From Malus domestica (Eukaryota > Streptophyta > Magnoliopsida > Rosales > Rosaceae): DNA of 64,000 bases. The translations under genes were made by a program, and so were the position numbers. Positions 23,723 to 62,730 of this stretch are shown here, one piece after another; the first letter of the stretch is position 1, and the number at the start of each line of letters is the position of its first letter. The notes under the pieces were generated by a model. That model saw only the letters and a list, made by a program, of their open reading frames with translations. It searched no databases and had not been told where the DNA came from. Location: positions 32,471,001 to 32,535,000 of the forward strand of contig NC_091677.1 in assembly GCF_042453785.1 (NCBI RefSeq), read 5' to 3'.

Positions 23723-24162
23723 CCAATTTCAGAGACTATTTTGAGTAAAAAAAATAAAAATAAATCTAGTTTAAACTAAAACTTTTCTTTGCTAAATCCA
23801 TTCTCACCATTGTTAATTTCAACAAGCATGGATCCAATATTTGCCAATCATATGTGTTCAGTTTGACCCAATTAAAATTTTCATTTAGAGCCTAGATATT
23901 AAAGTAGTTGTGAGGGGACTCGGGAAAGTCATATTTTGGCAGCTCTCTCGTTTCATTTAGTCCCCTCACAACTACTTTAATATCTAGGCTCTAAATGAAA
24001 TTTTTAATTGGGTCAAACTGAACACATATGATTGGCAAATATTGGATCCATGCTTGTTGAATTTAACAATGGTGAGAATGGATTTAGCAAAGAAAAGTTT
24101 TAGTTTAAACTAGGTTTATTTTTATTTTTATTTTTTTTACTCAAATTAGTCTCTGAAATTGG
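23723..24162. repeat. Long near-perfect inverted repeat (hairpin with about 200-bp arms)
   Basis: The left arm 23723-23920 and right arm 23959-24162 are reverse complements with few mismatches (for example AACAAGCATGGATCCAATAT on the left and ATATTGGATCCATGCTTGTT on the right). The loop is about 38 bp. A third partial copy of the arm tip and loop (GTTGTGAGGGGACTAAATG, then CATATTTTGGCAGCTCTCTC) follows at 24166-24250. Transcription through it would give a long double-stranded RNA. It directly adjoins the copia fossil, so it may have arisen from that insertion. Confidence 0.85.
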
Positions 24163-25440: not shown

Positions 25441-26295
25441 GAGTTTTAACAAAAAAACTCGTGGTACTGTTCACTTTAACGAAAAACCACATTTTTACGC
25501 TAAAAAGTCTAAACCAAGTTGAATATCAGAGTGCGCAACGAACGAGACTAACAAAATAATAGAAATATTATTAAACAAACGAGAATGTTGAAAGGTTACA
25601 AAAACTCTAAGAGACTACATTGTGACTGACTTTTTATCTCTGAATAACAAAGCTCTCTATTTATAATAAACTAACTCTAGTCCCTAATAAGCAAGGAAAC
25701 GAAAACCTAATTCTAATGGGCAAGAAACTCTAATATTCTTGGCCCAAAAGAAAACCATAAACAATAATAAAATAATAACTAATTTTCCAACCCCCCCCCC
25801 CCATCAAACTGACACGACAAGGTAAGCTCCGTTAGGCGGACATGACAAGGCAAATGGGTGAGCAATCAAGCGAGCAAACGAACAATCCAGGCAAACAAGC
25901 AAATTCGGGCGGACAATCCAACTAATGACCAGGGGCTCCAGATGTGCTATCCCCAAATGTGTGTCTCATTTGTGTCTCTTTGCTGATATGTTAACACATG
26001 TCATTTAACTTAACTTAAAACTTAACATTGTTAACTTTATTTATTTAATATTTAAATTTAAAAAAATCCAAAATAATAAAAAATTGTTGGGTTAACGAGG
26101 TGAGCAAACCCAAACAGGATTCTTCACCTTCTTTTACGCGACTGTTCAATGCACAAACATCTCTGTTCAAGCTTTCTGGTAGGCGGAGGAATCACCAGAC
26201 AGGAGTCGGTCCAGGTGTAAGTTAATCTGCCAGTGCTGCTGGAAAGTGATTTTAATAAACAAGCTTCTGCGTCCTCCATGCTATGAATCAGGTAT

Positions 26296-26339
26296 GTGTG
26301 TGTCTATATACATATATATATATACGTGTATATATATAC

Positions 26340-26376
<37 letters not shown>

Positions 26377-26377
26377 C

Positions 26378-26409
<32 letters not shown>

Positions 26410-26412
26410 ATT
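26296..26412. repeat. TA/TG microsatellite in the left MULE inverted repeat
   Basis: Alternating TATATA and TGTGTG tracts inside the presumed intron of the terminal repeat. The right repeat carries a shorter version at about 30397-30452, so the tract has changed length since the two repeats last matched. Confidence 0.8.
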
Positions 26413-26477
26413 CTTGCTGAAATATTCACATATAAATTTGACTCTTATATGTTGTATTTTTCATTTTTCCTTAAGGA

Positions 26478-29280
26478 CATGGACAGAGAAGATAATCTCA
26501 ATGAAGCTAATGGAACAAAAGCATATGCAAAGTCACTTCTGAATTATGAAACAGGTATTGACTTGAATTCTGTTATAGACTGTGAAAGCAATGAAACAAT
26601 AGATTTGGAAAAAACTGATGTCCGGAAACAACTAGTTCCAGTATTAGGCATGGAGTTTGAGACATAAGAAGATGCCTTTGAATTTTACAATGCATATGCT
26701 TATACTGTTTGGCTTTAGTGTTCGAAAAAGTAAAGCTCATAAAAATGAGGATGGCAAGTTGATGGACATATTTTTTGTTTGCTCTTCGGAAGGGCATCGT
26801 AAAAAAAGAAGTGTGATCCCAATGTTGAATCTCATCGCGCTGAAACAAGATTTGGATGTCGAGCAAGGATGCAAATCAGTTGTGGTCGATCGGCAAAGAA
26901 CTATAAGGTTATTAAATTTATTCCTGAGCATACACATCCAACATCAAGTCCTAGTAAGACTCATTTTTTTAGGTCACATAGGAACATGTCTTTTGCACAA
27001 AAAGTTAAAGCTGATATGGCTGATAGTTCAGGAATTGCTCCAAGAGAAAGTGTTGAATTTATGAGTAGACAAGTTGGTGGTCGTCAAAATCTTGGATTCA
27101 TTTATGATGACTATAAGAATTATTTGCATTCCAAGCGAACAAGAGAGATGAAGTTAGGTGATATAGGCGGAGTGTTGGAATATTTACAAAAAATGCAGTT
27201 GAATGACCCTAATTTCTTTTATGCTATACAAGTGGATGAAGATGATTTGATTACTAATATCTTCTGGGCTGATTCAAGGATGATGGTGGATTATGATTAT
27301 TTTGGTGATGTTGTATGTTTTGATACCACATATAGAAAAAATAAAGAAGGAAGACCTTTTGCGATGTTTGTTAGTGTCAACAATCATAAACAAACTGTTG
27401 TATTTGGTGCTGCATTATTGTATGCGGAGATCACTGCAACATTTAGTCGGTTATTTGACACTTTTGTCAAGGCTATGTCTGGAAAAAAACCAAAAACTAT
27501 TCTAACTGATCAAGATGCAGCAATGGCCAAAGCATTGTTTGAGAAGTGGCCACAAACATGTCATCGTTTATGCATCTGGCACATATACCAAAATGCAGCC
27601 AAGCAACTTAAAAGTGTCTTTGAGAATTTTAATGATTTTGCCAAGGAGTTTAGTAGTTGCATATACGACTATGAGGATGAAGATGATTTGCTATATGCTT
27701 GGAATAACATGCTGCAGAAATATAATCTTACAGACAATGATTGGTTGAATCGATTGTTTGCCATAAAAGAGAAATGGGCATTAGTTTATGGGCGGCAAAC
27801 TTTTTGTGTTGATATTACTACTACTCAGCGCAGTGAAAGTATGAACAGTGCTATCAAGAAGTATGTCAACTACAAATATGATTTGCTACGATTTGTTAAA
27901 CATTTTGAAAGGTTGGTTGACGATCGTCGGTATCAAGAGTTGAGAGCTGAATTTAAAGCAAGTCAAAGTTCCCCTACATTGTCATTTCCAGTAGAAATAT
28001 TAAAGCATGCAGCAGGTATTTATACACCAGCAATGCTTAAATGGTTTCAAAACGAGTTATGCAAAGCTCATGATTGTGTCTTGATCTTCAATGGTGAGAT
28101 TGGAAGCGTTAGAAAATATGAAATCATCCCTCATAGGAAGAATTGGCACCATACAGTCACATTTGACTCGACAAACAATATTGTTTCATGTAGTTGTAAG
28201 AAGTATGATTTTGCAGGAATCTTGTGTGCACATGCTCTAAAGGTTCTTTCAACAAGAAATATTACAAGCATTCCAACTCAGTACGTCTTGGAGAGATGGA
28301 CAAAAAATATCAAGTCTAGCAGTGCAAGAGTTACTATCAACATCTCAAGTAAAGATGACCCAAAGGCCAACATTGTAAGGCGTTATAAAGAGCTATGTCG
28401 ATTGCATATTCAATTAGCAACACGAGCAGCAGAGTCACCGGAAGCATATGAAATTGCTATATCAAGACTGAACAAGACGTTGGGAGAGGTTGATGCATGT
28501 TTGAAGGAGAAAGAAACTCAACAACCAACTCAAGTGAATGCATCTGAGCTCAGTGAGACTATATGCATTGATGATAATGTCATTCAAGTTAGAGGAATCA
28601 AAACTAAGGAAAAAGTTGCTGGAAATTCTAAGAGGCCAAGAAATGCTCTAGAAAAGGCCACCAAAAAGAAAAAGCCTCGAAATAAGGAACTAAAATATTC
28701 AACGGTGGACTCCGTTGCCGGTTCTATACAAACAACTCTACCTCATACTCCTATATTGCAGTCGGTATGTAACCTTGTGATCTGTGGATTTATTGAAACT
28801 CATGGTTTTGAACATTTATTTTACTTTCATTTAGTGTTGACTTCCATCTAATTTTGGACGGTTTTATAAATTTAGGTTGGTCAACCCAATCTAATGCCTG
28901 GACATATGCATTTTGGAGAGCCATTTGATTTTTCACAGGTATATAGGTTCACTTATACAAGCATACTTCTACAATCTTGCACTTATTTTCTTAAATATAT
29001 TGTTTACTTATAGGCATATTTTTTTGCACTTCTGTTTATATGTATATTAGCAATACTATTTAGGGATCCAAAATGCTACAAGCAGTTATCCGTAAGGTCC
29101 AACTAGCATGGTTAATTTATTGCAGGTAACTCTTTTGTAATTGGTTAATACTTTCTTCTTTTTTCATTTATAATTTCTTTCCTAAAGGACTAATTTTATG
29201 TCATTATATATGCATATAGGCGCAGATACAATTACCAACAACGAAGGATTAGGCTTTGATAAGCTCTCAAATGACAAGCA
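26478..29280 (+). pseudogene. FAR1/FHY3-related MULE transposase gene, N-terminal part broken
   Basis: The first exon starts MDREDNLNEANG. A FAR1 DNA-binding domain (LGMEFET...EDAFEFYNAYAY, then CGRSAKNYKVIKFIPEHTH) lies at about 26640-26960, but a TAA interrupts it at 26665 and a frame change follows. From 26869 to 28851 a single open frame of about 650 residues encodes the MULE transposase core (VVCFDTTYRKNKEGRPF, ILTDQDAAMAKAL, CHRLCIWHIYQNAAKQL), a CX2CX-type SWIM zinc finger (CSCKKYDFAGILCAHALKV) and a lysine-rich tail. Splice-like sites after LPHTPILQS (donor GTATGT near 28765, acceptor near 28875) suggest further small exons to about 29280, with GQPNLMPGHMHFG and GSKMLQAVIRKVQ. In the domesticated FAR1 family such proteins are transcription factors; here the flanking inverted repeats mark it as transposon-borne. 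Confidence 0.8.
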
Positions 29281-29679
29281 CCACGAAGACACATGATAAT
29301 GATATGAAAGTGCAAGATGCTATGAGAAGAGCGCTCAGGGAATTTACTCTGTTTTTGGGACTAAAGCTTCAGTTAATACTTTTTATTAAAGAACCATCTT
29401 ATTTAGTTTGATGTTTGGAAAGTAGTGACTATCAGTTCTTCTGATTTGCTAATGACTCATAACATAGTTTGATTGAAAAGAACGAATTTTACTTTGTTTT
29501 TAGAGTGAAATTCGTTTGACCCCAAGCACCTGCAAGAGCTTTCATTTAGTCACAAATCAGTTCTTGCATTTAAAGGACATATATAGCACTATAGTTTTGG
29601 TTTTGTGTAATTCAGTCACCTCAGCTATGAATGATGATTTCATATTGTTATAATCTCACTTGCTTCAAACTAAAATATA

Positions 29680-30331
29680 GTGCAATCTTCTCCAATAATA
29701 GCCTTCCATCCAAGTCAGGGTTTAACCCAAGATGCCATATTGATATTCCCTTATGAGTGGCAACAACATTTACCTCATATGACCTTCCAATGTTCGGTGC
29801 CCACGCAACTGCGTAGACCTAATCACCATTGTCACCAGGCGAAGCCAACTCTGCAACTGGGAGCCATCTTTGATGAGCCTGATCAAATTCCCATATCTCG
29901 GCGGAATTAAGTTGTGGTGTTTTTAAATTGAAACCCAAAACAAAAATTGATTCCTAGCTTTTCTTTCCTTTGTGGATTCCAAGGTATATAATGCATATGG
30001 CATGGCCAACTGTAGACACCGAGTCAATAACACTCTGAAATTCAGCCTGAAGCTGCCAATTCTTCAGTTCCAATGGATTCATTAGCTCATAGAACTTGAC
30101 ACGAGCATCTGAATATGCAGTAACCATTTTTAAACCTACTGGTGAGACTCCAAATTGGGTATCTAGCAATTGAGCCAAACCGCTATTAAAGCTTGTGCAC
30201 AGCTTCCATTGAAGAGGTTGTGCATCTTCAGCAACTTCCTCCCACAATGATAAAGTTTCATCTGCACAGACACACGCCACTGCATCGCCCAATTCCGGTG
30301 GAACCCAAGCAATTTTCACAATTTCGTCCAT
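29680..30331 (-). pseudogene. Captured SEH1 nucleoporin fragment inside the MULE
   Basis: An ATG supplied by the transposon's inverted repeat (30331) opens directly into SEH1 sequence: MDEIVKIAWVPPELGDAVAC, then SLWEEVAEDAQP and LELKNWQLQAEFQSVIDS, giving a 125-residue chimeric frame that ends at 29954. Beyond a frame change, SEH1 similarity continues as WNPQRK, WEFDQAHQRWLPVAELASPG and ISIWHLGLNPDLDGRLL down to about 29690, with a further stop. SEH1 is a WD40 protein of the Nup107-160 nuclear-pore scaffold and of the GATOR/SEA complex, about 326 residues in plants. The copy covers roughly residues 60-250. The first part of the parent gene is replaced by the transposon's own leader. It is a Pack-MULE-style acquisition. 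Confidence 0.8.
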
Positions 30332-30873
30332 GTCCTTAAGGAAAAATGAAAAATACAATATATAAGAGTCAAATTTATATATGAATATTTCAGCAAGAAT
30401 ATATATATATATATACACACACACACACCACACACAGACACACACATACCTAATTCATAGCATGGAGTTCTTTGATCACCTTTCAGTTGGGACGCAGAAG
30501 CTTGTTTATTAATCTCACTTTCCAGCAGCACTGGCAGATTAACATACACTTGGACCAATTCCTGTCTGGTGATTCCTCCGCCTACTGGCAAGAACCCACG
30601 CGCCATCATCAAGTTCTACCAGAAAGCTTGAACAGAGATGTTTGTGCATTGAACAGTCGCGTAAAAGAAGGTGAAGAATCCTGTTTGGGTTTGCTCACCT
30701 CGTTAACCCAACAATTTTTTATTATTTTGGATTTTTTTAAATTTAAATATTAAATAAATAAAGTTAACAGTGTTAAGTTTTAAGTTAAGTTAAATGACAA
30801 GTGTCAACATATCAGCAAAGAGACACAAATGAGACACACATTTGGGGACAGCAAATCTGGAGCCATGACCAGG

Positions 30874-31697
30874 TACACAACGTCACTCAAGTGGTCATCA
30901 GTCCAAGCACTAAAGCAATTGTGGTGGTGAGCAACAAAGTTCCAACAACAGGTTATTCTCATATCATCCGTGTGGGCCTCAAAACCTGATTACTCTCCCT
31001 TCATTTTTTTTCTTCTTCTTTTCTTTGAGTGGTCATTCGTAAGCAATTCAAACTAACAAGCAGTGGCTTCTCAACAGAGGGGTCGCCAACGTACAAGTTC
31101 GAGATTCAAGGCTCGGTAATTCCAGCGGATTCGAGGTATGGCAGGGTGTAGCACCAATCAGTGTGTGCGTAGCAGCTCTGGTGTGGGCGAGAGCAACGGG
31201 TATACGGGTGGGGATGTCACGGTGCATGTATGGTGCAGTGGTCGGGATGGTGATGGTTTGTGCAATGGTCTGCGGCGACAGGGCAGAAGGTTGGTCAGGC
31301 GGCAGCGGCAGTGCGTGGTGGTTTGTGTTCCTGATTCAGGCAAGCAAGAAATCATGCAGGGAACAGGCATGCTAGACACAATCAGCGGCGGTGAGATTGA
31401 CGTAGCAGTGGTGTGGTGGATGGCAGGAACAAGGACGATGGTGGATGGCAGGAACAAGAACAACATTGAATGGCAAGACGAGGTGGTAGGCCAGGTAGGT
31501 GGGCCGGATCCCGGTGTGGCGTGGCTCTGGCGGCTCAATGCAACAAAGCTTCACTTTTTTTATTTATTTTTATTTCAAACTGCAAAACAGAAACCTACGG
31601 CACAACGAAAAACAAATCACAACGAAGAACAGCACAAACAAATTAGCTACCAAGAACAGATTTAACCTCGGAGGATCAAACTTGCTCTGATACCAAA
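30874..31697 (-). other. Interior of the non-autonomous LTR element
   Basis: About 0.8 kb between the MULE and the 5' LTR. The plus-strand frame reads THNVTQVVISPSTKAIVVVSN-like sequence at about 30880-30985, which may be a captured exon, but I do not recognise it. G+C-rich GTGG-repeats at 31140-31530 give long open frames on both strands; these look compositional, not genic. Confidence 0.35.
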
Positions 31698-32105
31698 TTG
31701 AATATCAGAGTGCGCAACGAACGAGACTAACAAAATAATAGAAATATTATTAAACAAACGAGAATGCCGAAAGGTTACAAAAACTCCAAAAGACTACATT
31801 GTGATTGACTTTTTATCTTTGAATAACAAAACTCTCTATTTATAATAAACTAACCTTAGTCCCTAATAAGCCAGGAAACGAAAACCTAATTCTAATGGGC
31901 AAGAAACTCTAATATCCTTGGCCCACAAGAAAACCATAAACAATAATAAAATAATAACTAATTTTCCAACAATTTATCCTTATCGTTAAAACTCAAAGTT
32001 TTCAAACCATTTTCATTAGTTTTCCTTAAAAGGTTAGCTGAACTATTCAAGTGGTAATAGTAAATTAGTAGTCATATATATGGGTTATGATTCGGGAATA
32101 CAAGC

Positions 32106-32440: not shown

Positions 32441-33091
32441 ACATCGTAACCATATATATAAGGAGATCTACTCCAGTTGACGCAAAAGTCGCATACATGT
32501 GCATTGTATTAAGTCGATCTTTGTTTTGTTAATTATATATGTCTCAAGTGCTTCAAGTTCTTTGATGTATACGAATCGGCAGGTTTCGACTTTTTGGCAT
32601 CAGTTGCTACTTCAGATGCTCTGGCTATTGGCCAGTTGATTTTGGTTCACCTTCTTTTGCGGATCTAAGGCAAGGCATGCACGTCGCTGCCTGCAATGGG
32701 TGGACTCTAGAAAATTCATTTTTTACGTGCCACTCTTGAAAATTATATTATATTTTGCATATAAATATTTAGTGGACATTATCAACAGTTAAATTCTGCA
32801 TATACAATTGTATAACAAATTAAAAACCAGATCTGAATTAATTAAATAAATGGCAGGCAATTTATTTAACTTAATGAGTTTTGCCCAAGGTTGTGTTGAC
32901 TTTCTCACTTTTTGTTTAATTTTCTAATTAAGTTTCTTTCCCTAGGCAATGTCAGTTGATATTATATAGAATAGTTGTATATAATCCCAAACCATATTGG
33001 TATGTTGTCTCACACCGATTTCTTTGTTCTCACTCCATCTCTTTGCTTCTTCTCTAAGTGACCTGAACAAACAATAAACACTGAAACACCA
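32441..33091 (+). promoter_or_regulatory. Upstream region of the methyltransferase-like gene
   Basis: Non-coding, AT-rich. TATATAGAATAG at about 32962 and GTATATAATCCC at about 32977 are TATA-like and lie 110-130 bp upstream of the start codon. No repeat ends recognised. Confidence 0.35.
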
Positions 33092-34291
33092 ATGGCCTCG
33101 GATTCCCCACTTAAATCCAAGCCTCCATACTCCTCAAATATCTTGTTCCTTTTCCTTCTCCTTTCAACAAATCTCATCACCTTGTTCCTCTCCTCATCAT
33201 TTTCGTTTTGCGCCCTCAAACCTTCTACAACAACCACCGCAGCAGCCACCGCGGATCCCGCCACTCCAACGACCGGCTCCAACCTCCCTTATGCCTCTAC
33301 GGAAGACACATCTAACCTTCCAGCTGAATTTCTTGCCTTTGCGTCCGGACAACTCCTCCCATTTGGATACAATGCAAACTTTGACTCCAACACCATATAT
33401 CCTCCAGTTGGACAAGCATGCACACTCTTCCCTGATCTCCTCCGCCGCTTCATGTCCTACAAGGTAAATGGATCGTGCCCGGATGACGAGTTTTTAGCCC
33501 AAAGGCTCCTCCTCAAGGGCTGCGAACCCTTACCACGCCGACGCTGCCGCCCTGCCTCAAACCCTAACTACGTGGAACCCTACCCTCTTCCCAAAAGCTA
33601 CTGGTCCACACCGTCCGACAACTCAGTCGTATGGACAGCCTACAAATGCAAAAACTACGACTGCCTCATCAACCGAAAGAAAAACCACAAGGGCTTCGAC
33701 GACTGTATAGACTGCTTTGACCTTCAAGGAAATGAGAAGAATCGGTGGGCAAAAGGCAAAGGAGGAGGGCTTGATTTCGGCGTGGATGAGGTCTTGGGGT
33801 TCAAGAAACCCCGAACGATACGAATAGGGCTTGACATCGGCGGTGGAGTGGCTACATTCGCTGTGAGAATGAAGGAGAGGAACATAACAATTTTGACAAC
33901 TTCAATGAACTTGAATGGTCCTTTTAACAGCTTCATTGCTTCAAGAGGGGTCGTGCCTTTGTACCTAAGCATTTCGCAGAGGCTGCCGTTTTTCGATAAT
34001 ACGCTCGACATTGTGCATTCGATGCACGTCTTGAGTAACTGGATTCCGACGACGTTGCTTCATTTCGCTATGTTTGATATCTACAGGGTGCTTAGGCCTG
34101 GCGGGTTGTTTTGGCTTGACCATTTTTTCTGCGTAGGTGAGCAGTTGGAGGAGGTCTATGGACCTCTCATTGAGAGCATTGGGTACAAGAAGTTGAAGTG
34201 GGTTGTTGGGAAGAAGCTTGATCGTGGACCGGAGCGTAGGGAGATGTACCTCTCGGCGTTGCTGGAGAAGCCATTGAAGAACTCTTGGTGA
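33092..34291 (+). CDS. Putative SAM-dependent methyltransferase, At1g29790-like, membrane-anchored
   Basis: Intronless, 399 residues. A single hydrophobic segment at about residues 16-42 (NILFLFLLLSTNLITLF) makes a signal anchor, typical of a type II Golgi or ER membrane protein. A conserved plant-specific lumenal region with many cysteines follows (GQACTLFPDLLRRFMSYK, GSCPDDEFLAQRLLLKGCEP). The methyltransferase fold comprises motif I IRIGLDIGGGVATFAVRM, IVHSMHVLSNWIP, and YRVLRPGGLFWLDHF. This family is annotated as probable methyltransferase, related to the QUA/TSD-type fold but shorter; the acceptor is not established. Start codon verified as ATG. No defects seen. Confidence 0.88.
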   Translation: MASDSPLKSKPPYSSNILFLFLLLSTNLITLFLSSSFSFCALKPSTTTTAAATADPATPTTGSNLPYASTEDTSNLPAEFLAFASGQLLPFGYNANFDSNTIYPPVGQACTLFPDLLRRFMSYKVNGSCPDDEFLAQRLLLKGCEPLPRRRCRPASNPNYVEPYPLPKSYWSTPSDNSVVWTAYKCKNYDCLINRKKNHKGFDDCIDCFDLQGNEKNRWAKGKGGGLDFGVDEVLGFKKPRTIRIGLDIGGGVATFAVRMKERNITILTTSMNLNGPFNSFIASRGVVPLYLSISQRLPFFDNTLDIVHSMHVLSNWIPTTLLHFAMFDIYRVLRPGGLFWLDHFFCVGEQLEEVYGPLIESIGYKKLKWVVGKKLDRGPERREMYLSALLEKPLKNSW

Positions 34292-35347: not shown

Positions 35348-36729
35348 GAAAAAGAAAATGGAAGAACGCAAATTTAGAAAGTGCGATATTCCTATATAAC
35401 ATTGACGATAGCATTTACAATGATTGTATTTCCAAAACCCTTAAACCATGTCATTCTATCAAACTAACTGTGGAGCCTAAAATAATCACAAGGCGACACG
35501 TGGATTTTTGGGTAAAAGAGGACAAAAATACCCTTGAGGCATACTGGGATTCCTACGCGCGAGCAGCGGGTAATCATCCCTAAACAAAGTCAAAAGTGCC
35601 CAAAATAGGTATCAACTTAAAACCTATTTCATTCCATATATTTCTTACCTCTTTTTCCCTCTTTTAGCTAATCAATTAGTTATTTATTTTATTCTTTCCA
35701 TAACTTCTAAAACCTTCCTTCTAAAAATCATGATAAATGGCCAATTAAGGACTTAATTGCCTATTTAATCCCTTAAATTGACAATTAAGTGATCCCTTTT
35801 ACCCATAAAATACCACATGGCCGGCCATCCCCATAGCTTTCTACCTTTCCTATCTTTTCCCACTTTACTACCCAATTAAGCTAGCTAATTGATTCTATAA
35901 CCATCCATTTATTCCCTTTATGTTTAATTAGCCAATTAATCATAATAAATTGGCTAATCAAACCTAAAATCAACCACAAAACCCACTTAATGGCCGACCA
36001 CTTTCTCTAAAAAGTGGACCGGCCAAACCCTATAAAAAGGCTCCCATTTTCACAAAACTTTCATTCCAACACTTTGGCAAAAATCCCAAAATTCTCTAAA
36101 CACTCTTTCTCTCTAAATTCTAACTTTGGCATCGGAGGTTCTTCGGCTAAAGCCCCCCATTCATCGTGGGCACGTGAAGCTCTTGGCCTTAACCTAAGGT
36201 GTTAATTGTTTTGTAGGTGCAAAATTGTCCAAGATCAAGGAGGAAGAAATTTGCCTCCACAAATTGGTGCTTTCATTGAGAGTTGAAATCCATACTCGTA
36301 GAAGACTCTCGCACAAAAAGGTTTTTTCTTTATTTTCTAGTCCATTTGAATATTTTTCATACGTTCTTATTATTAGAATTTTTTACTTGCAAAGGTTCTT
36401 TGATAAAACGTATAAGCAAAATATAATGACTAGAAATTTAGAAAATTCCACAAGTGAAAATTCTAATGTTTAAGAAATGGGATTGCGGAGACCCGTGAGG
36501 CTAAATGCGACAATAAGTGGAGCAGCACCACCACCACGAGTTTCCACCATGGGAACCATCGCGGTGGCTACCTCGGTAGCCACCCGTGGCGAGGTCCATG
36601 GTGCCTTCACCACGGCCCGAGCTGTGCCATCCAAGGCTCACGACAGCAAGGCCACGGCCCAAGCCGTGCCATCCAAGTTTGCACGGGCCCGAGCCCAAGC
36701 CTCGCATTCGCATGCATCACATACTAAGC

Positions 36730-37385
36730 AGTCTGCTTCCGTCGAGCAGCCCACTCCCGTGGCCCAGCCTGCTCCCGTCAAACAACCTGCTCTCGTGGCC
36801 CAGCTTGCTTCCACCAAGCAACCTGCTCTCGCGGCCCAACCTGCTCCCGACAAGCAGCCCACTCCCATGGTCCAGCCTGCTTCCGTCGAGCAGTATACTC
36901 CCGTGGCCCAGCCTGCTCCCGTCGAGCAACCTCATCTCGCGTCCCAGCCTGCTCTTGTCGAGCAGCCTACTCTCATGACCCAACCTGCTCCCGACGAGCA
37001 GCCCACTCCCATGGCCCAGCCTGCTCCTGTCGAGCAGCCCACTCTCATGGCCCAACCTGCTCCTGCCGAGCAGCCTACTCTTATGACCCAGCCTGTTCCC
37101 GACGAGCAGCCTACTCCTGTGGCCCAACCTGCTCCTGTCGAGCAGCCCACTCTCACGGCCCAACCTGCTCCTGCCGAGCAGCCTACTCTCGTGACCCAAC
37201 ATGCTCCTGACGAGCAGCCCACTCCCGTGGCCCATCATGTTCCTGTCGAGCAGCCCACTCTCACGGCCCAACCTACTCCTGCCGAGCAGCCCACTTTCGT
37301 GACCTAGCCTGCTCCCGACGAGCAGCTCACTCTCGTGGCCCAGCCTGCTCCAGTCGAGTAGCCCACTCTCACGGCCAGCCTATTC
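36730..37385 (+). repeat. 36-bp tandem repeat coding for a proline-rich 12-residue unit
   Basis: About 17 imperfect copies of a 36-bp unit whose plus-strand product is PAPVEQPTLMAQ with variants. Because the period is a multiple of three, long frames stay open on both strands. It lies between the 5' LTR and gag, where Tat/Ogre-lineage gypsy elements are known to carry an extra frame of unknown function. Element fossil; the frame is not a host gene. Confidence 0.8.
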
Positions 37386-38339
37386 TCGTGGCCCAACCTG
37401 CTTTCGTGGCTTTCCAAGCAACCCAAGTCGGCCCAAGAATATCTCAACCATTCGGACCTACCATCGAGCCGGGGATATTTTCACCATATTTTTTCGCGGA
37501 TTTGACATTTCCCAACTCAAATCTCGCGCTCGGAGTCTACCACCCTTCCATTGCCCAATGAGGCGCATTCCTTCCAAGCTCTTCTAATCCAAATGACGAA
37601 CAACACTTGTCTCGACAAGTCATAGAGTTGACGAGCGCCCTTGCACAACAGACAACCTTGGTGAATCAACTTTTGTAACGCATCGGGATCCAACGTGCCC
37701 CGGACGAGGTATCCCGAAGTAGGACAAGGGCAGACGAACTTTTCCAGCAGGGTCTCGGCAAGCAGCCACGAGCCGAACGTTCAGGCAATGTACATTCCCG
37801 ATTGGGCCCCCAAGATAGCGTATACTCCCGTCTTAGCGCGCGGAGGAGCGTGCACTCTCGACTAGGCCCACGGATAAGCACACATTCACGGTTGGGGTCA
37901 CATTCCGATAGTCAACATGAGCAACTTTCCGGGCAAAGTGTTAATTCGCGGCTAAGCCCGCAAGGAGCATCATCCACCTCACATCAGAGTAGGCAGCACG
38001 ACGGACGGAGAGAAGCAGTCACTCAATCCAGCTCAAGTTCAACCAGCAGCCTGCGAAGAACTCGCTCGCATGTTAAGAACGCACCACATGCACTACATCC
38101 GCGACATAGACGAGCCAAACACATGGAAGAGCAGCCTAGACCAGCAAGTCATGGCTGGGGGCAGCCGAGATCTCAGCTACCCTAACAAAGGCAAATTCAG
38201 GAAGAAGTAGAGAGACTCTTGACCAAGCGATTGCATGATTTCCAACGTAATGAGGTCACCGATGAGGCACTACAATGGAACATGACTAACATAAGTAGGT
38301 CACCCTTCACGGACGAGATCGAGTAGGCAGAGCCTCCAC

Positions 38340-47530: not shown

Positions 47531-48169
47531 TAATTATGAACCCATATCATGTAAGGAGACACCTTCCTAGATTTCCTACTGTATTTGGATTACACCCTAT
47601 TAGGGTATACAACTTGTTGATGCACAAAACCGGAGGTCTTGGAACAACGTAAATCCGACCGTGAATCTGCAAGAAAGTAAATAATACAAGATGTATCGTG
47701 GTTCACCTCAATGTTTGGGCTACGTCCACACTGATATTATATTTCTCTGAGAGGATTGAGGATGAGAGGGTGAGAGCTCTTCCCATGGCCTAAGAATTGG
47801 CCTCCCCTAATGAGAAGAGTGAGAAGTCCTTTTATAGAATAAGGGCTCCTCACTCATTACATATTTGCCCCTTCATTTATTACATAATTACATTTGGGTC
47901 CCTTGAGTATTTATACGAGGTCTAAATACGGAGGCCCTAAGTATGGTACAAACAATGGTCCCCCAAGTCTTCAGTCAAGAGAGTCTTTTGGCTAGAGATT
48001 TGAAATTCAGTCCATGTGTGGGCCGAAGTAACTAGATGTCATCTAGAATCAATACTCGATATGAGGCGGTGCCCAATCTGAAATGATGCTCAACCAGAAG
48101 TAGCACATGTTGTGAGGCTGCTCTGCTTGTGGCTTATGTTGCCTTGGTTGGCTCAGCCTGTGGTGTTGA

Positions 48170-48590
48170 AGATGAGGGAGTCCCTTTTATAGAATAAGGG
48201 CTCGCTCCTCAATACAAAAATGATGGGCTAGAGTTGATGCTCGCGGCGAGGCGGTTGCTCAGTAGATGGCGATGCTCTCTAATGATGGTGAAGGAGTCCC
48301 TTTTATAAAATAAGGGCTCGCTCCTCAGTACATGAATAATGGGCTAGAGTTGATGCTTGCGACGATGCTCTCTAATGAAGGTGAGGGAGTCCCTTTTATA
48401 AAATAAAGGCTCGCTCCTCAGTACATGAATAATGGGTGCTCTCTAATGAAAGTGAGGGAGTCCCTTTTATAAAATAAGGGCTCGCTCCTCAGTACATGAA
48501 TAATGGGTGCTCTCTAATGAAAGTGAGGAGTTCATTTTATAGAATAAGGGCTCGCTTCTCAATACATAAATAATGGGTTATAGTCCCCCA
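48170..48590. repeat. Tandem array A inside the LTR element (five copies)
   Basis: The phrase GAGTCCCTTTTATAGAATAA then GGGCTCGCTCCTCA occurs at about 48177, 48292, 48385, 48457 and 48527 with spacers of variable length (about 70-115 bp period). The same phrase resembles part of the LTR itself (CCTTTTATAGAATAAGGGCT), so the array may have been seeded by LTR sequence. Confidence 0.8.
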
Positions 48591-48754
48591 AGTATTTTTC
48601 ATGAGGCCCAGTTGAGGCCCAATATATGGTACATAATGTAGTCTCCCAAGTTTTCGGTCAATAGAGTCTGTTGGCTGGAAACTTCAAATTGAATCCACGT
48701 ATGGACCGAAGTGGCGGTTGTTTGGAGGTGGTATTTGTATACCCTACACTGAAG

Positions 48755-49030
48755 CTTTGTAGGTGAAGCTTTGCAAGTGAAGCTTTTGAAGCTGGAGCTT
48801 TGTAAATGAAGCTTTTGAAGCTGGAGCTTTTGTAAATGAAGCTTTTGAAGCTAGAGCTCTGTAAATGAAGCTTTCGAAGCTAGAGCTCTATAAATGAAGC
48901 TTTCGAAGCTAGAGCTCTATAAATGAAGTTTTCGAAGTTGGAGCTCTATAAATGAAGCTTTCGAAGCTAGAACTCTATAAATGAAGCTTTAAAAGCTAGA
49001 GCTCTGTAAATGAAGCTTTTGAAGCTAGAT
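48755..49030. repeat. Tandem array B, about 29-bp unit
   Basis: About nine copies of TGAAGCTTTTGAAGCTAGAG then CTCTGTAAA. The unit contains the palindrome-like GAAGCTTTCGAAGCT. Confidence 0.85.
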
Positions 49031-49190
49031 TGACATGAGTGATGCTCATGAATGTTTATGTTGATTGACATGAGTGATGCTCATGAATGTTGACATGAAT
49101 GATGGTCATGAATGTTTATGTATGATTGACATGAGTGATGCTCATAAATGTTTATGTATGATTGACATGAGTGATACTCATGTATAATTG
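49031..49190. repeat. Tandem array C, about 36-bp unit
   Basis: Four to five copies of TTGACATGAGTGATGCTCAT then GAATGTTTATGTATGA. Confidence 0.85.
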
Positions 49191-49192
49191 TG

Positions 49193-49500
49193 GAATATTG
49201 GACGTAGTTTTGATCACCTGGTTGGTGATAATAGCGGCAGGGTGCCGAATAAATTTGGAGTACTGGGCGTACTTTTGATCACATGGTTGGTGATAATAAC
49301 GGCATGGTGCCGAATAAATTTGGAGTACTGGGCGTACTTTTGATTACCTGGTTGGTGATAATAGCAGCAGGGTGCCGAATAATTTTGGAGTACTAAGCGT
49401 ACTTTTGATCACCTGGTTGGTGATAATAGCGGCAGGTTGCTGAATAATTTTTTGTAGTACTGGACATACTTTTGATCACCTGGTTGGTGATAATAGAGGG
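49193..49500. repeat. Tandem array D, about 63-bp unit
   Basis: Five copies of a unit with GGAGTACTGGGCGTACTTTT, GATCACCTGGTTGGTGATAA and TAGCGGCAGGGTGCCGAAT. GATCACCTGGTTGGTGAT can fold on itself. Confidence 0.85.
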
Positions 49501-57437: not shown

Positions 57438-60400
57438 TGTTAGGAATGTCGGTACTACAAGATAGAGAATGCACAAAGTAAAGTAGAAAATGGACACCAA
57501 AAATTTATGTGGTTCGGCAATTTATGCCTACGTCCACCAAACAAGGATCAATCTTCACTATATGAAAAGATGAGTACAACAAGAGTAGTCTTACCAAGCC
57601 AAAGACAAGGCTTGATGGATACAAGAAAGTAGGACACACACTTTCTATCACACTAAACTTCACTCACACAATGTGTAGTGGAACACTCTCACTCTCACTC
57701 TTGGAGTGGAACTCTAGCTTTGGACTTGATCCTTTGCTACTCACTACTCTCTTGATTTGTTGTTTCACTACAACATCACACCCATATTTATAGGTGAGGG
57801 TTTGGCATTCTACTAGTTTCTAGTGTATTCTTCAAACCTCTAGCATAGAAAGATCTAGACTAGCCACAAAAGTGTGGCTTCTAGATCTTTCCATTTGCAA
57901 CCAAGGAAGCTAGTACTCTCTAGCTTCTTCCATCAACTTAATAACATGCTAGAATTGTCTAGCATGCTCCAGCCATCTCTCTTGCTTACTAGAATAATCT
58001 AGAACATTGATCATGGGCTGGACCATATACCAACAATCTCCCCCTCCAGTCCATGAGGGAGGAATTCCGATCATGACTCCAAGTTACCTGGAGTCCATCC
58101 CAGCAGCCTTAATGCAGAATTCCAACTTTGATTTTGTGACCACCTTTGTCAACATGTCTGAAGAATTATTATCGGTATGAATCTTCTTCAGCTGTAGCAT
58201 CTTGTTCTCGATAGCATCTCTAATCCAGTGATAACGAATATCAATGTGCTTGGTGCGTGAATGGTATGCAGTGTTTTTGCTCAAATCCAGAGCACTCTGA
58301 CTATCACAATAAACGCCATAATCACTTTGTTTCAAACCCAACTCTTGGAGAAACCGCTTCAGCCACAACAACTCCTTGCATGCTTCTGTAGCGGCTATGT
58401 ATTCAGCCTCGGTTGTAGACAAAGCAACACACTTTTGCAACTTGGATTGCCAAGACACGGCTCCCCCTGCAAAAGTAAACAAGTACCCAGACGTAGATTT
58501 TCTACCATCCAGGTCACCTCCCATGTCAGCATCTGTAAATCCTTCTAAGATTGGTTTGGAACCGCCAAAGCACAAGCACATCTTAGAAGTCCCCTTCAAA
58601 TATCTGAGAATCCACTTAACAGCTTCCCAATGGTCTTTCCCTGGATTAGAGAGAAACCTGCTCACCACACCTACTGCATGAGCAATATCTGGCCGTGTGC
58701 ACACCATTGCATACATGATACTTCCTACTGCTGAAGAGTAGGGAACAACTGCCATTTTCTCCTTTTCTTCATATGTTTTTGGACACGACTCTTTGCTCAA
58801 CTTGATATGATTGGCTAAAGGTGAGCTTACCGATTTGGCTGTTTTCATGTTGAACCTTTCAAGCACCCGTTCAACATACTTTTCTTGTGACAGCCACAAC
58901 TTCTTGGATTTTCTGTCACGAATTATCTCCATGCCCAAAATCTGCTTGGCTGGCCCTAAGTCCTTCATGTCAAAGGACTTAGATAACTCTTCTTTGAGCT
59001 TTTTAATCATAAAAGCATCTTGACCGACAATCAACATGTCATCAACATAAAGCAACAAAATGATGAATTTACCTCCAGAAAATTGTTTGATATAGACACA
59101 AGAGTCAGCATGAGTTCTCTTGTACCCATTACTCACCATGAATGAGTTGAACTTCTTATTCCACTGTCTCGGAGCCTGCTTAAGACCATATAAACTTTTC
59201 TTGAGCTTGCACACCAAATTTTCTTTACCTTTGACTTCAAAGCCTTTGGGTTGCTCCATGTATATCTCCTCTTCTAAATTGCCGTGGAGAAATGCAGTTT
59301 TAACATCTAACTGCTCGAGCTCAAGATCCATGCTTGCTGCCATACCAAGGATAACTCGAATGGAAGTCATCTTCACCACCGGTGAGAAAATCTCATCAAA
59401 GTCAACTCCTTTCTTTTGACCAAAACCTTTGACAACCAAACGAGCCTTGTACCTTGTCATGTTGTCGTCTCTTTTCAATTTGAACACCCACTTGTTTTTC
59501 AATGCTTTCCTGCCCTTTGGAAGCTCCACAAGCTCATAGGTATCATTCTTTGATAAGGAATCCATCTCCGACTCCATTGCCTTCATCCATTTGTCACTGT
59601 CGTTATGAGCTTTGGCATCCTCATATGTTTCGGGCTCTCCATAATTAGTCAACATGATATACTCTGATGAAGAATACTTGGTAGACGGTCTTCGACTTCT
59701 GATGGATCTTCTGACCTGATCTTCATTCTCTTGCGGGGCTAGAGGCTCCCCCTGATTGGATTCTCCTTGAATCTGCTCTTCTTGACTAGGCTCCCCCTGA
59801 TCAGCAATCTCATGGTCTGGCACATCTTGATCAGGCTCCTCTTGATCAGCATTATCTGATTCTGCAGGCACTTCATTGGCAGTTGCTTCAGGGATGTCAT
59901 CGTGACTTTCTTCATCTGAAACTAATGGATCAACTCCTCTGACTGCGCCATCTGGTTGTGCCTCTTTATCCGAATCCCCAATTGTTTGATCTTCATAAAA
60001 GACCACGTCTCTACTTCGGATAAACTTCTTCTGGTATGGGTCCCATAATCTGTAACCAAAATCTTCACCGCCATAACCAAGAAAGATGCACGGTGTAGCT
60101 TTGTAGTCTAACTTCGATCTCTGCTCTTTGGGCACATGCACAAAAGCTTTGCAACCAAACACCTTCAGATGAGAGTAAGACACATCATTACCAGTCCATA
60201 CTCTCTCTGGAACATCAAGACCTAATGGTACTGATGGAGATCGGTTGATCAAATAGCAGGCTGTCCTTACAGCTTCACCCCAGAACTGCTTAGATAACTT
60301 TGCAGTCCTCAACATACACCTGACTTTCTCCATGATGGTTCGGTTCATTCTTTCAGCAACACCGTTATGTTGTGGAGTTCCAGGAACTGTCTTCTCATGA

Positions 60401-62730
60401 CGTATGCCATGTTTTACACAATACTCTCTAAACTGGTGAGATGTGTACTCGCCGCCGTTGTCGCTACGAAGGCACTTGAGAGGTTTCCCAGTTTCCCTCT
60501 CCACCATGGCATGGAACTCCTGGAATGTCTGAAACACCTGGTCTTTGGATTTCAACAAATACACCCACACCCTTCGTGAAGCATCATCAATATAAGTAAC
60601 AAAATATTTATTTCTTCCAAGTGACTCGACTTCCATGGGACCACACACATCTGAATAAACAAGATCTAACAAGTTTCCTTTCTTTGTAGATGGAACAGAA
60701 AAACTAACTCTTCTTTGTTTTCCGAATAAACAATGCTCACAAGAGTTTAACGACGTACCTTTGGCAAAGGGAATATGAGACTTCTTTGCCAAAACTTGTA
60801 GGCCTTTCTCGCTCATGTGGCCTAGCCTTTTATGCCACAAGTCTAGAGATGAGTCTTCCACAGCATTCAACTCACCTTTCAAAACCTTGGCATTTGACCG
60901 GTACAACGTACAACAAAGTCGTGCTCTTGCTACCACCATTAAGCCTTTAGTAAGCTTCAATTTTCCTTCGCCAATATGGTGATAATATCCTTGTCGATCA
61001 AGGGTACCGATGGATATCAGATTGAGACGTATATCAGGAATATGTCTCACATCTTTCAACATCAATTGGCAGCCGAGATTAGTTCTTAAGCAGATATCAC
61101 CAATTCCAAGAATTTTGGAATAGCTTTCATTCCCCATCTTCACTATGCCAAAGTCACCTTCTTTGTATGTACTGAAGAACTCCCGTTTGGACGTAGCATG
61201 GAAGGAAGCTCCATTATCAAAGATCCATTCAATGTCTCTGTCAGAGTTGCCCATATGCAGACATTCACCAACAGACAATATTTCTGGTACATCACCACAG
61301 ATGACAGCGGTGGTATTGCCAGTATCATCTTTCTTCTGATTGTTTCCTTCCCTTTGCTCTCTCTTCCAAACTCGACAATTTTTCTTCATATGGCCTTCTT
61401 TGCCACAGTGGTGGCATGCACCCCTGAACTTTGACTTGGATCGGCTAGGACTCCTGCCATGACCTCTAGGCCCTCTACTCTTGCTTCTTCCGCGGTTCTC
61501 TGTGACAAATACTTGGCTGCTATCTGTGCCAGAAGTCTTTCTCCTTGTTTCTTCATTGAGCATGCTATTTTTAACATTATCAAGAGTAAGAACACCATTA
61601 GAAGCAGAGTTACTTATACTCACCACAAAGGTCTCCCAACTGTCTGGCAAGGATCCAAGTAACAAGAGCGCTTGTAGCTCGTCCTCGATCGTCATTTTCA
61701 TAGTAGCCAACTGGTTGATGATATTCTGGAAATTGTTCAAGTGTTCTGCTACACTTAAACCATCCTTGTACTTCACATTGATGAGCTCTTTGATCAAGAA
61801 GGCTTTCTTGGCTGGAGTTTTCTTCTCGAACAAGGACTCAAGCTTTGTCCAAAACTCGCGAGCATTGGTTTCATTAGACACATGGTGAAAAACACTATCG
61901 TCCACCCATTGTCTAATTGTGCCAATAGCCTTGCGATTCATCTTCTTCCACTCGGCATCGGACATGCTCTCGGGCTTAGCGGCATCTCCTTCAATTGGCT
62001 CATGCAAATCCTTGCAATAGAGAATGTCCTCCATCCTTGGCTTCCATGTTACCCAATTGGAGTTGGTGAGTTTGATCATAGTGCCACTTCCTTCCATCTC
62101 GCAGTACGAGCCAACCGGGCTCTGATACCACTTGTTAGGAATGTCGGTACTACAAGATAGAGAATGCACAAAGTAAAGTAGAAAATGGACACCAAAAATT
62201 TATGTGGTTCGGCAATTTATGCCTACGTCCACCAAACAAGGATCAATCTTCACTATATGAAAAGATGAGTACAACAAGAGTAGTCTTACCAAGCCAAAGA
62301 CAAGGCTTGATGGATACAAGAAAGTAGGACACACACTTTCTATCACACTAAACTTCACTCACACAATGTGTAGTGGAACACTCTCACTCTCACTCTTGGA
62401 GTGGAACTCTAGCTTTGGACTTGATCCTTTGCTACTCACTACTCTCTTGATTTGTTGTTTCACTACAACATCACACCCATATTTATAGGTGAGGGTTTGG
62501 CATTCTACTAGTTTCTAGTGTATTCTTCAAACCTCTAGCATAGAAAGATCTAGACTAGCCACAAAAGTGTGGCTTCTAGATCTTTCCATTTGCAACCAAG
62601 GAAGCTAGTACTCTCTAGCTTCTTCCATCAACTTAATAACATGCTAGAATTGTCTAGCATGCTCCAGCCATCTCTCTTGCTTACTAGAATAATCTAGAAC
62701 ATTGATCATGGGCTGGACCATATACCAACA
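57438..62730 (-). mobile_element. Ty1/copia LTR retrotransposon, Tork/Tnt1-like lineage; looks whole and young
   Basis: 5293 bp with the direct repeat GTAAC on both sides (57433-57437 and 62731-62735). The LTRs 57438-58035 and 62133-62730 are each 598 bp, start TGTTAGGAATG, end ATACCAACA, and read as identical, so insertion was very recent. On the minus strand TGGTATCAGAGC (initiator methionine tRNA site) follows the 5' LTR, and a GGAGGGGGAGAT polypurine tract precedes the 3' LTR. Each LTR holds a TATA-like ATATTTATAGG. A single long frame fills the interior. Nearest relative from memory: tobacco Tnt1/Tork. Confidence 0.92.
58084..62097 (-). CDS. Copia gag-pol polyprotein of the young element
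   Basis: One frame of about 1337 residues from the ATG at 62097 (MEGSGTMIKLTNSNWVTWK); the longer frame to its right has no earlier ATG. In order: gag (UBN2-type, LLLGSLPDSWETFVVSI), zinc knuckle CHHCGKEGHMKKNC, protease region, GAG-pre-integrase domain (LWHKRLGHMSEKGL), integrase core (SDNGGEYTS, GTPQHNGVAERMNRTI), an acidic spacer rich in PDQE, reverse transcriptase (YKARLVVKGFGQKKGVDFDE, LKQAPRQWNKKF, LLLYVDDMLIVG) and RNase H (YCDSQSALDLSKN, RTKHIDIRYHWIRD). Copia elements usually make gag and pol from one frame, as here. The polyprotein encodes everything for reverse transcription and integration in virus-like particles. Confidence 0.9.
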   Translation of the reverse strand: MEGSGTMIKLTNSNWVTWKPRMEDILYCKDLHEPIEGDAAKPESMSDAEWKKMNRKAIGTIRQWVDDSVFHHVSNETNAREFWTKLESLFEKKTPAKKAFLIKELINVKYKDGLSVAEHLNNFQNIINQLATMKMTIEDELQALLLLGSLPDSWETFVVSISNSASNGVLTLDNVKNSMLNEETRRKTSGTDSSQVFVTENRGRSKSRGPRGHGRSPSRSKSKFRGACHHCGKEGHMKKNCRVWKREQREGNNQKKDDTGNTTAVICGDVPEILSVGECLHMGNSDRDIEWIFDNGASFHATSKREFFSTYKEGDFGIVKMGNESYSKILGIGDICLRTNLGCQLMLKDVRHIPDIRLNLISIGTLDRQGYYHHIGEGKLKLTKGLMVVARARLCCTLYRSNAKVLKGELNAVEDSSLDLWHKRLGHMSEKGLQVLAKKSHIPFAKGTSLNSCEHCLFGKQRRVSFSVPSTKKGNLLDLVYSDVCGPMEVESLGRNKYFVTYIDDASRRVWVYLLKSKDQVFQTFQEFHAMVERETGKPLKCLRSDNGGEYTSHQFREYCVKHGIRHEKTVPGTPQHNGVAERMNRTIMEKVRCMLRTAKLSKQFWGEAVRTACYLINRSPSVPLGLDVPERVWTGNDVSYSHLKVFGCKAFVHVPKEQRSKLDYKATPCIFLGYGGEDFGYRLWDPYQKKFIRSRDVVFYEDQTIGDSDKEAQPDGAVRGVDPLVSDEESHDDIPEATANEVPAESDNADQEEPDQDVPDHEIADQGEPSQEEQIQGESNQGEPLAPQENEDQVRRSIRSRRPSTKYSSSEYIMLTNYGEPETYEDAKAHNDSDKWMKAMESEMDSLSKNDTYELVELPKGRKALKNKWVFKLKRDDNMTRYKARLVVKGFGQKKGVDFDEIFSPVVKMTSIRVILGMAASMDLELEQLDVKTAFLHGNLEEEIYMEQPKGFEVKGKENLVCKLKKSLYGLKQAPRQWNKKFNSFMVSNGYKRTHADSCVYIKQFSGGKFIILLLYVDDMLIVGQDAFMIKKLKEELSKSFDMKDLGPAKQILGMEIIRDRKSKKLWLSQEKYVERVLERFNMKTAKSVSSPLANHIKLSKESCPKTYEEKEKMAVVPYSSAVGSIMYAMVCTRPDIAHAVGVVSRFLSNPGKDHWEAVKWILRYLKGTSKMCLCFGGSKPILEGFTDADMGGDLDGRKSTSGYLFTFAGGAVSWQSKLQKCVALSTTEAEYIAATEACKELLWLKRFLQELGLKQSDYGVYCDSQSALDLSKNTAYHSRTKHIDIRYHWIRDAIENKMLQLKKIHTDNNSSDMLTKVVTKSKLEFCIKAAGMDSR

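Follow-up and report, generated by a model that had tools for sequence, protein, structure and literature searches.

Intronless SEH1 sequence carried by a family of Mutator-like elements in the apple genome

A Mutator-like element (MULE) of Malus domestica carries, alongside a broken transposase-type gene, a fragment of the nucleoporin gene SEH1 that lacks all five parental introns within its span, and among the matches listed an intronless SEH1 copy occurs in six loci of the same family, with both arms and target duplications in five of them. The account that we favour, and consider probable, is that the element in the window (the whole 64,000-nucleotide stretch of DNA that was analysed) is a decayed copy of a Mutator family in which both ends are potential 5' ends, and that processed SEH1 sequence entered this family once, spread with it, and was fused to the transposon's start codon in the window copy. 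Contigs of the apple assembly are designated C and loci of the family L; L011 is a relative with SEH1, L047 one without.

The element, its arms and its two convergent genes

The features of the element are the following, in positions of the window:

25925..25933, no strand: left target-site duplication ATGACCAGG, an exact 9-bp match to the right copy
25934..30864, no strand: Mutator-like element of 4,931 bp; terminal inverted repeats (TIRs) start GGCTCCAGAT, target duplication on both sides
25934..26484, plus strand: left inverted arm with TIR, leader exon to 26291, leader intron 26292-26475 and GACATGGAC
26476..29252, plus strand: transposase-type gene; MULE and SWIM domains above the Pfam cut-off, FAR1 below it and split over two frames
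29254..29676, no strand: transposon 3' region between both convergent genes, with 96% identity in L011 and 91% in L047
29677..30325, minus strand: SEH1 fragment without introns, from parent exon 2 to exon 7, across five exon junctions
29819..29821, minus strand: second in-frame stop TAG, CAG in the C6 SEH1 gene
29954..29956, minus strand: first in-frame stop TAG, CAG in the C6 SEH1 gene
29957..30331, minus strand: 125-codon open frame ATGGAC-SEH1, from translation, PDB match and arm alignment
30326..30864, minus strand: right inverted arm with TIR, leader exon to 30450, leader intron 30449-30335 and GACATGGAC
30865..30873, no strand: right target-site duplication ATGACCAGG, a perfect 9-bp pair with the left copy

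The perfect 9-bp duplication lies within the 8-11 bp of MULE target duplications, the arms of ~540 bp are long terminal inverted repeats as MULEs possess them, and the gene on the plus strand encodes a MULE transposase domain (PF10551, E 6.1e-27, above the Pfam cut-off), all of which bears out the initial annotation of a transposase-bearing MULE. An in-frame stop at 26665-26667, together with frame changes, interrupts the reading frame of the transposase, so that the element is not an autonomous MULE today. Its longest open stretch in the window runs from 26803 to 28851; in the three elements compared, such stretches amount to 682 codons in the window and 176 in both L011 and L047. The small 3' exons of the gene and its end near 29252 are a by-eye reading. 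Viral-contig searches with the transposase and with SEH1 returned no relatives.

The two inverted repeats had been described as mirrored 5' ends with an identical leader, intron and start codon. Both arms indeed hold a leader, a GT-AG leader intron and, directly after the intron end, GACATGGAC, but the leaders are not identical: the right arm has 34 and 23 additional bases, its microsatellite is shorter and it carries substitutions, and the arms align with 17 mismatches at 482 sites (K2P 0.036) and several indels. By one such substitution the exon-1 ATGAATCAG of the left arm, which is in frame with the transposase, reads ATGAATTAG on the right arm. At the arm transitions the right arm carries A/T in nine of 12 cases, a bias in direction that is not significant (p 0.15). 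When spliced, the right leader presents an upstream ATG that opens a 78-codon frame overlapping the SEH1 ATG in a different frame, which matters only if transcription starts upstream of it. The splice sites of the leaders, like those of the SEH1 genes, are read from the sequence.

On the minus strand the right arm, up to ATGGAC, abuts SEH1 at about codon 59 in frame, and the junction of host sequence to the transposon's own start codon thus holds as first described. The 125 residues match 'Protein SEH1' (PDB 9sob_O, which we take to be the Arabidopsis protein) with E 2.7e-44 and 153 bits; a SEC13 reached only 24 bits, which rules out a generic WD40 identity and makes the assignment to SEH1 specific. 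The SEH1 pieces past both stops match 9sob_O likewise (129 identical among 196 aligned residues for the window SEH1), and because the similarity continues through two in-frame stops to ~29677, the 125 codons are the remnant of about 217. Pfam returned a sub-threshold TFIIIC_delta match for the fused frame, and no match in a scan of the two later SEH1 pieces. Since SEH1 lies between the two copies of the target duplication, it was absent from the empty site; its presence at the site before insertion is ruled out.

Several other repeats and frames occupy the window. Direct repeats at 25513-25791 and 31692-31970 (95% alike) flank the MULE; their starts lie ~1.24 kb apart if the MULE and a single target copy are discounted, and the stretch adjoining the right repeat presumably resembles a tRNA primer site, so that the MULE seems to lie inside a short LTR-type element. 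Just beyond the MULE, positions 33089-34291 hold an open methyltransferase-type frame of 400 codons (PF03141, PF08241). A GC-rich 36-bp tandem array of ~18 copies (36625-37428), possibly a coding repeat within an LTR element, is situated between repeats 6.6 kb apart and 96-100% alike. Two 300-nt stretches, 57438-57737 and 62133-62432, are 100% identical at a distance of 4.7 kb and resemble the LTRs of a young retrotransposon. A dense minisatellite cluster with units that include 29, 65 and 71 bp (48167-49496) and an inverted repeat of 174 nt, 98% complementary with a 38-nt spacer (23747-24132), complete the picture.

Spliced SEH1 sequence, its parent gene and its entry into the family

The genome search covered 651 Mb in 19 contigs and reported best-scoring candidates only, so copies may be missed. 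It located intron-containing SEH1 genes on C6 and C14 that match the query exon by exon, the C6 gene with eight GT-AG exons and a coding sequence of 981 nt for 326 aa. In the available text of PMC7566457, apple MdSeh1a is assigned to Chr06 with 326 aa and MdSeh1b to Chr14 with 327 aa; our two genes resemble this pair in chromosome, and the C6 gene also in its 326 aa. How much of the intron structure had been kept was to be read from a comparison with the host locus: against the C6 gene, introns are absent at all five parental junctions in the window copy and at all seven in L011. The window copy differs from the C6 gene at 46 of 646 sites and from the C14 gene at 80 of 649; the corresponding counts for L011 are 65 of 976 and 120 of 979, and the genes themselves differ at 80 of 978. 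Where the genes differ and the window and L011 agree with one of them, they side with C6 at 41 sites and with C14 at nine, and they have eight changes in common that are absent from both genes. The window fragment is nearest the C6 SEH1 gene.

L011, a 5,525-bp element on C14 with a 9-bp target duplication (one mismatch) and a transposase gene of 92.5% identity to that of the window, contains the SEH1 transcript in spliced form and free of introns: the copy starts ~39 nt ahead of the ATG, ends ~118 nt past the stop and aligns over ~1,140 nt at 92% to the spliced C6 transcript. It retains SEH1's own ATG, and its SEH1 frame is broken too. L012 (C12) and L013 (C4) are elements of ~1 kb that have both SEH1 breakpoints in common, differ at 10 of 337 sites and are flanked by perfect 9-bp target duplications different from each other, while L056 (C2, 849 bp, perfect 8-bp target duplication) holds the 5' part of SEH1 from the 5'UTR, own ATG included; no transposase match was found in any of these three. 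In L014 (C12) SEH1 stands beside only part of one arm. The cargo is thus distributed over two elements with transposase genes, three elements of 0.85-1.0 kb without, and one partial-arm locus.

The 26 listed matches to the L011 SEH1 copy comprise these six intronless copies, all in the MULE family, eight exons of the C6 gene, eight of the C14 gene and four exon-sized matches elsewhere, two of them near the C6 gene, one on C8 and one on C13. The latter two (L015 and L016) are single stretches of the length of SEH1 exon 2, 83-87% like the C6 transcript, with no further SEH1 match apart from a weak one of 41 nt in L016.

L011, L014 and L056 have the same 5' junction, GACAAGG followed by SEH1 5'UTR. 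At the capture point of L047, ATTAATGAAGACAA continues into other sequence; in L014 and L056 this motif is followed by the SEH1 5'UTR, and L011 shows the same continuation after a rearranged version of the motif. Because the intronless copies span exon junctions, and in L011 extend from 5'UTR to 3'UTR, SEH1 would have entered the family as processed sequence. By eye, neither a poly(A) tract nor a target duplication of retroposition is seen around the L011 SEH1, and the argument for an RNA step is for this reason the absence of introns by itself.

Two routes of entry have to be weighed. A MULE may have captured a genomic SEH1 retrocopy as DNA, the retrocopy being later lost or missing from the assembly, and we give this an even chance. 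Ordinary gap-filling at the DNA level would be enough for it, models of which are described for Pack-TIR elements in the available passages of PMC8277862, where a retrogene, ARF6, is also placed almost completely within a MER20 transposon, a case that could also be recurrent retroposition (PMC8277862). The 26 matches listed (best candidates) contain no intronless SEH1 outside the MULE family, which speaks against this route and in favour of the other, in which reverse-transcribed SEH1 mRNA served directly as filler in the repair of a break inside a MULE and was then multiplied with it. Such cDNA capture, a possibility to which we lean less than evenly, fits the content of L011, an intron-free and complete coding region with ~39 nt of 5'UTR and ~118 nt past the stop, but it left no poly(A) trace, and a lost retrocopy would be expected to yield the same pattern. 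Under the favoured account, then, a processed SEH1 transcript, as cDNA or as a since-lost retrocopy, would have filled a gap in the 3' interior of an element once; the SEH1-carrying element would have spread, and internal losses would have given rise to Pack-MULE-like derivatives. In the window copy the 5' part and the 3' end of SEH1 would have been lost, and the right arm through ATGGAC would have come to abut the remainder.

Ks is 0.112 between window and C6 gene and 0.257 between C6 and C14, therefore the capture is younger than the SEH1 gene duplication and, by rough proportion, would be a bit under half its age. Selection was assessed at codons where C6 and C14 are the same (163 for the window, 246 for L011), with stop-making changes excluded (one and three, respectively). 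Against 77% expected, nonsynonymous changes make up 17 of 25 in the window (p 0.34) and 32 of 42 in L011 (p 0.86), compared with 30 of 80 between the C6 and C14 genes (p 6e-14); the substitutions in the window and L011 copies fit neutrality. Pairwise Ka/Ks is 0.48 for C6-window and 0.53 for C6-L011, values that mix in the constrained C6 branch, 0.77 for window-L011, and 0.40 for L012-L013, which rests on few changes; the range of 0.40-0.77 therefore leaves room for some early constraint. Of the changes in the window lineage 13 of 26 are C-to-T or G-to-A, and of those in the L011 lineage 32 of 45.

These data bear on the chimeric 125-residue frame highlighted at the outset. The frame exists, with an in-frame ATG and a GT-AG leader intron ahead of its 125 open codons, but it is decayed: it ends at the first of two TAG stops, compensating frameshifts lie within it, and its substitutions look neutral. 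The possible upstream overlapping frame is a further obstacle, and joining in frame has a one-in-three chance of occurring anyway. That it represents a functional chimeric gene or a dominant-negative piece of SEH1 is highly improbable; a working chimeric protein is unlikely, and the window copy most likely does nothing as a protein now.

The mirrored start and the fusion to SEH1

Contrary to what the initial annotation had implied, the capture event itself did not produce the ATG fusion. L011, L012, L013, L014 and L056 all retain SEH1 sequence 5' of the window's junction, L011 and L056 even the whole region from the 5'UTR with SEH1's own ATG; of the six loci, therefore, only the window copy has the ATG join.

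The mirrored start has a history independent of SEH1. Eighteen further regions with arm matches were examined, among them L047 (C15), which has a transposase gene of 90.8% identity and no SEH1 match. Its right arm contains the leader, the intron, the ATG and ~40 nt of the transposase start, and this start passes a shuffle test (none of 200 shuffles as high); the element is degenerate on the left, and a search for its target duplication came out negative. An element without SEH1 hence possesses a mirrored 5' end with start codon, which rules out that mirrored arms were made only by the SEH1 event. In L048, L049, L061 and L064 the end of the leader intron, the ATG and ~57 nt of transposase start adjoin the 3' region, on one side only in the matches listed; L049 (999-5225), flanked by a perfect 9-bp target duplication, contains different cargo in which a LINE-like frame was recognised by eye. 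The other 13 regions include L056 with its SEH1 and L052 with leader pieces on one side, the rest holding little beyond TIR matches.

Conversely, SEH1 is present and the mirrored start absent in L011 and L056. In the SEH1-side arm of L011 only the initial 141 nt of the leader query find a match, the rest of the leader, the leader intron and the transposase start being unmatched there. A transposase remnant in SEH1-side arms seemed likely on inspection by eye but was discarded, the scores being at chance level (26, 13 and 21 of 200 shuffles as high for L056, L011 and L014, respectively).

The outer arms of the window element are 2.1% apart and 8-14% from the nine other arms compared, so the two have a recent history in common. 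In a comparison of the inner 85 nt, the right arm of the window element lies at a distance of 0.024 from the L011 left arm and of 0.082 from its own left arm. A 28-nt piece like the SEH1 5'UTR recurs in the opposite arm of L011, L012 and L013, a sign that arms exchange sequence. The fusion may have come about when the left arm was copied into the right, or through a deletion behind an older mirrored start; the two routes are about equally likely in our view, because the SEH1-side transposase remnant is no better than chance.

If transcribed, the arms would give rise to RNAs that converge, one from the transposase gene and one in sense orientation to SEH1, and the 423 bp between both genes could let these transcripts overlap; any effect would be exerted by RNA or small RNA rather than by a working protein. 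A further reading is that the element gives, or once gave, rise to small RNAs which damp the SEH1 genes, through convergent transcription from its arms. The convergent gene order in the window would suit such a role, long MULE TIRs are associated with siRNAs in the available text of PMC6446971, and captured sequences are described as siRNA reservoirs in maize in that of PMC13317346; at 7% divergence from the C6 gene, we nevertheless regard it as unlikely. The idea that SEH1 was taken up to escape nuclear-pore control is weak: the yeast Nup84 complex represses Ty elements, and in the passages available of PMC8585004 the seh1 deletion is the exception.

Comparison with known transposon systems

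The initial statement that gene capture by MULEs is mostly a matter of Pack-MULEs is fair, but capture by elements with a transposase is on record as well (PMC2528002), and MULEs that combine a transposase gene with transduplicated host sequence are documented (passages of PMC2528002 and PMC13317346). No MULE carrying a full spliced transcript and no Pack-MULE with nucleoporin cargo was found described in the open-licence literature searched; in the available text of PMC8903248 the terms intron, cDNA, spliced and mRNA are absent. Intronless copies of multi-exon genes were deliberately discarded in a survey of animal Pack-TIR elements (available text of PMC8277862), so spliced captures may be under-reported. 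What sets the present family apart is a near full-length spliced transcript as cargo, with a cargo-free relative and derivatives in one genome. The pick-up of genes by DNA transposons is still an open problem, and cargo-free, full, truncated and small copies here display its steps together; the family is indicative of an RNA step, the products of which can be filtered out in surveys, and if direct uptake of cDNA were true, MULE captures of processed mRNA copies would be under-counted.

The KI-MULE and other ULP-bearing MULEs of Arabidopsis, melon, rice and grapevine likewise unite a transposase with a host-derived gene, and in KI-MULE that gene is in reverse orientation to mudrA, as SEH1 is to the transposase in the window (passages of PMC2528002 and PMC13317346). 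According to the same passages, ULP-bearing MULEs encode a ULP1-type protease domain that is conserved in eudicots, and KI-MULE is without TIRs, whereas the window element has a decayed spliced SEH1 and long TIRs; no ULP1 protease domain occurs in the window frames scanned with Pfam, a set to which 29254-29676 does not belong. A Mutator family of grapevine with cellulose synthase sequence also has a piece of a host gene inside it, but that cargo is both intronic and exonic, whereas the SEH1 copy is free of introns (available text of PMC2528002).

With Jittery-like MULEs that have an N-terminal FAR1 domain, the window element shares MULE and SWIM domains and a weak FAR1 match; its arms, at ~540 bp, exceed the 39-292 bp that the available text of PMC6446971 gives for the dicot/monocot Jittery subgroup. 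L012, L013 and L056, with host sequence and no transposase match, are like Pack-MULEs. The window element likewise has a host fragment (SEH1, 29677-30325) between MULE TIRs, but both it and L011 also contain transposase genes, which Pack-MULEs do not.

In maize MuDR the genes mudrA and mudrB are convergent. Each of the two stands beside its own TIR, TIRA or TIRB, as each gene does in the window (available text of PMC8224964). Unlike in MuDR, the second gene of the window element is a host fragment and the arms extend through a start codon; arms that reach this far can supply captured sequence with a leader, an intron and an ATG.
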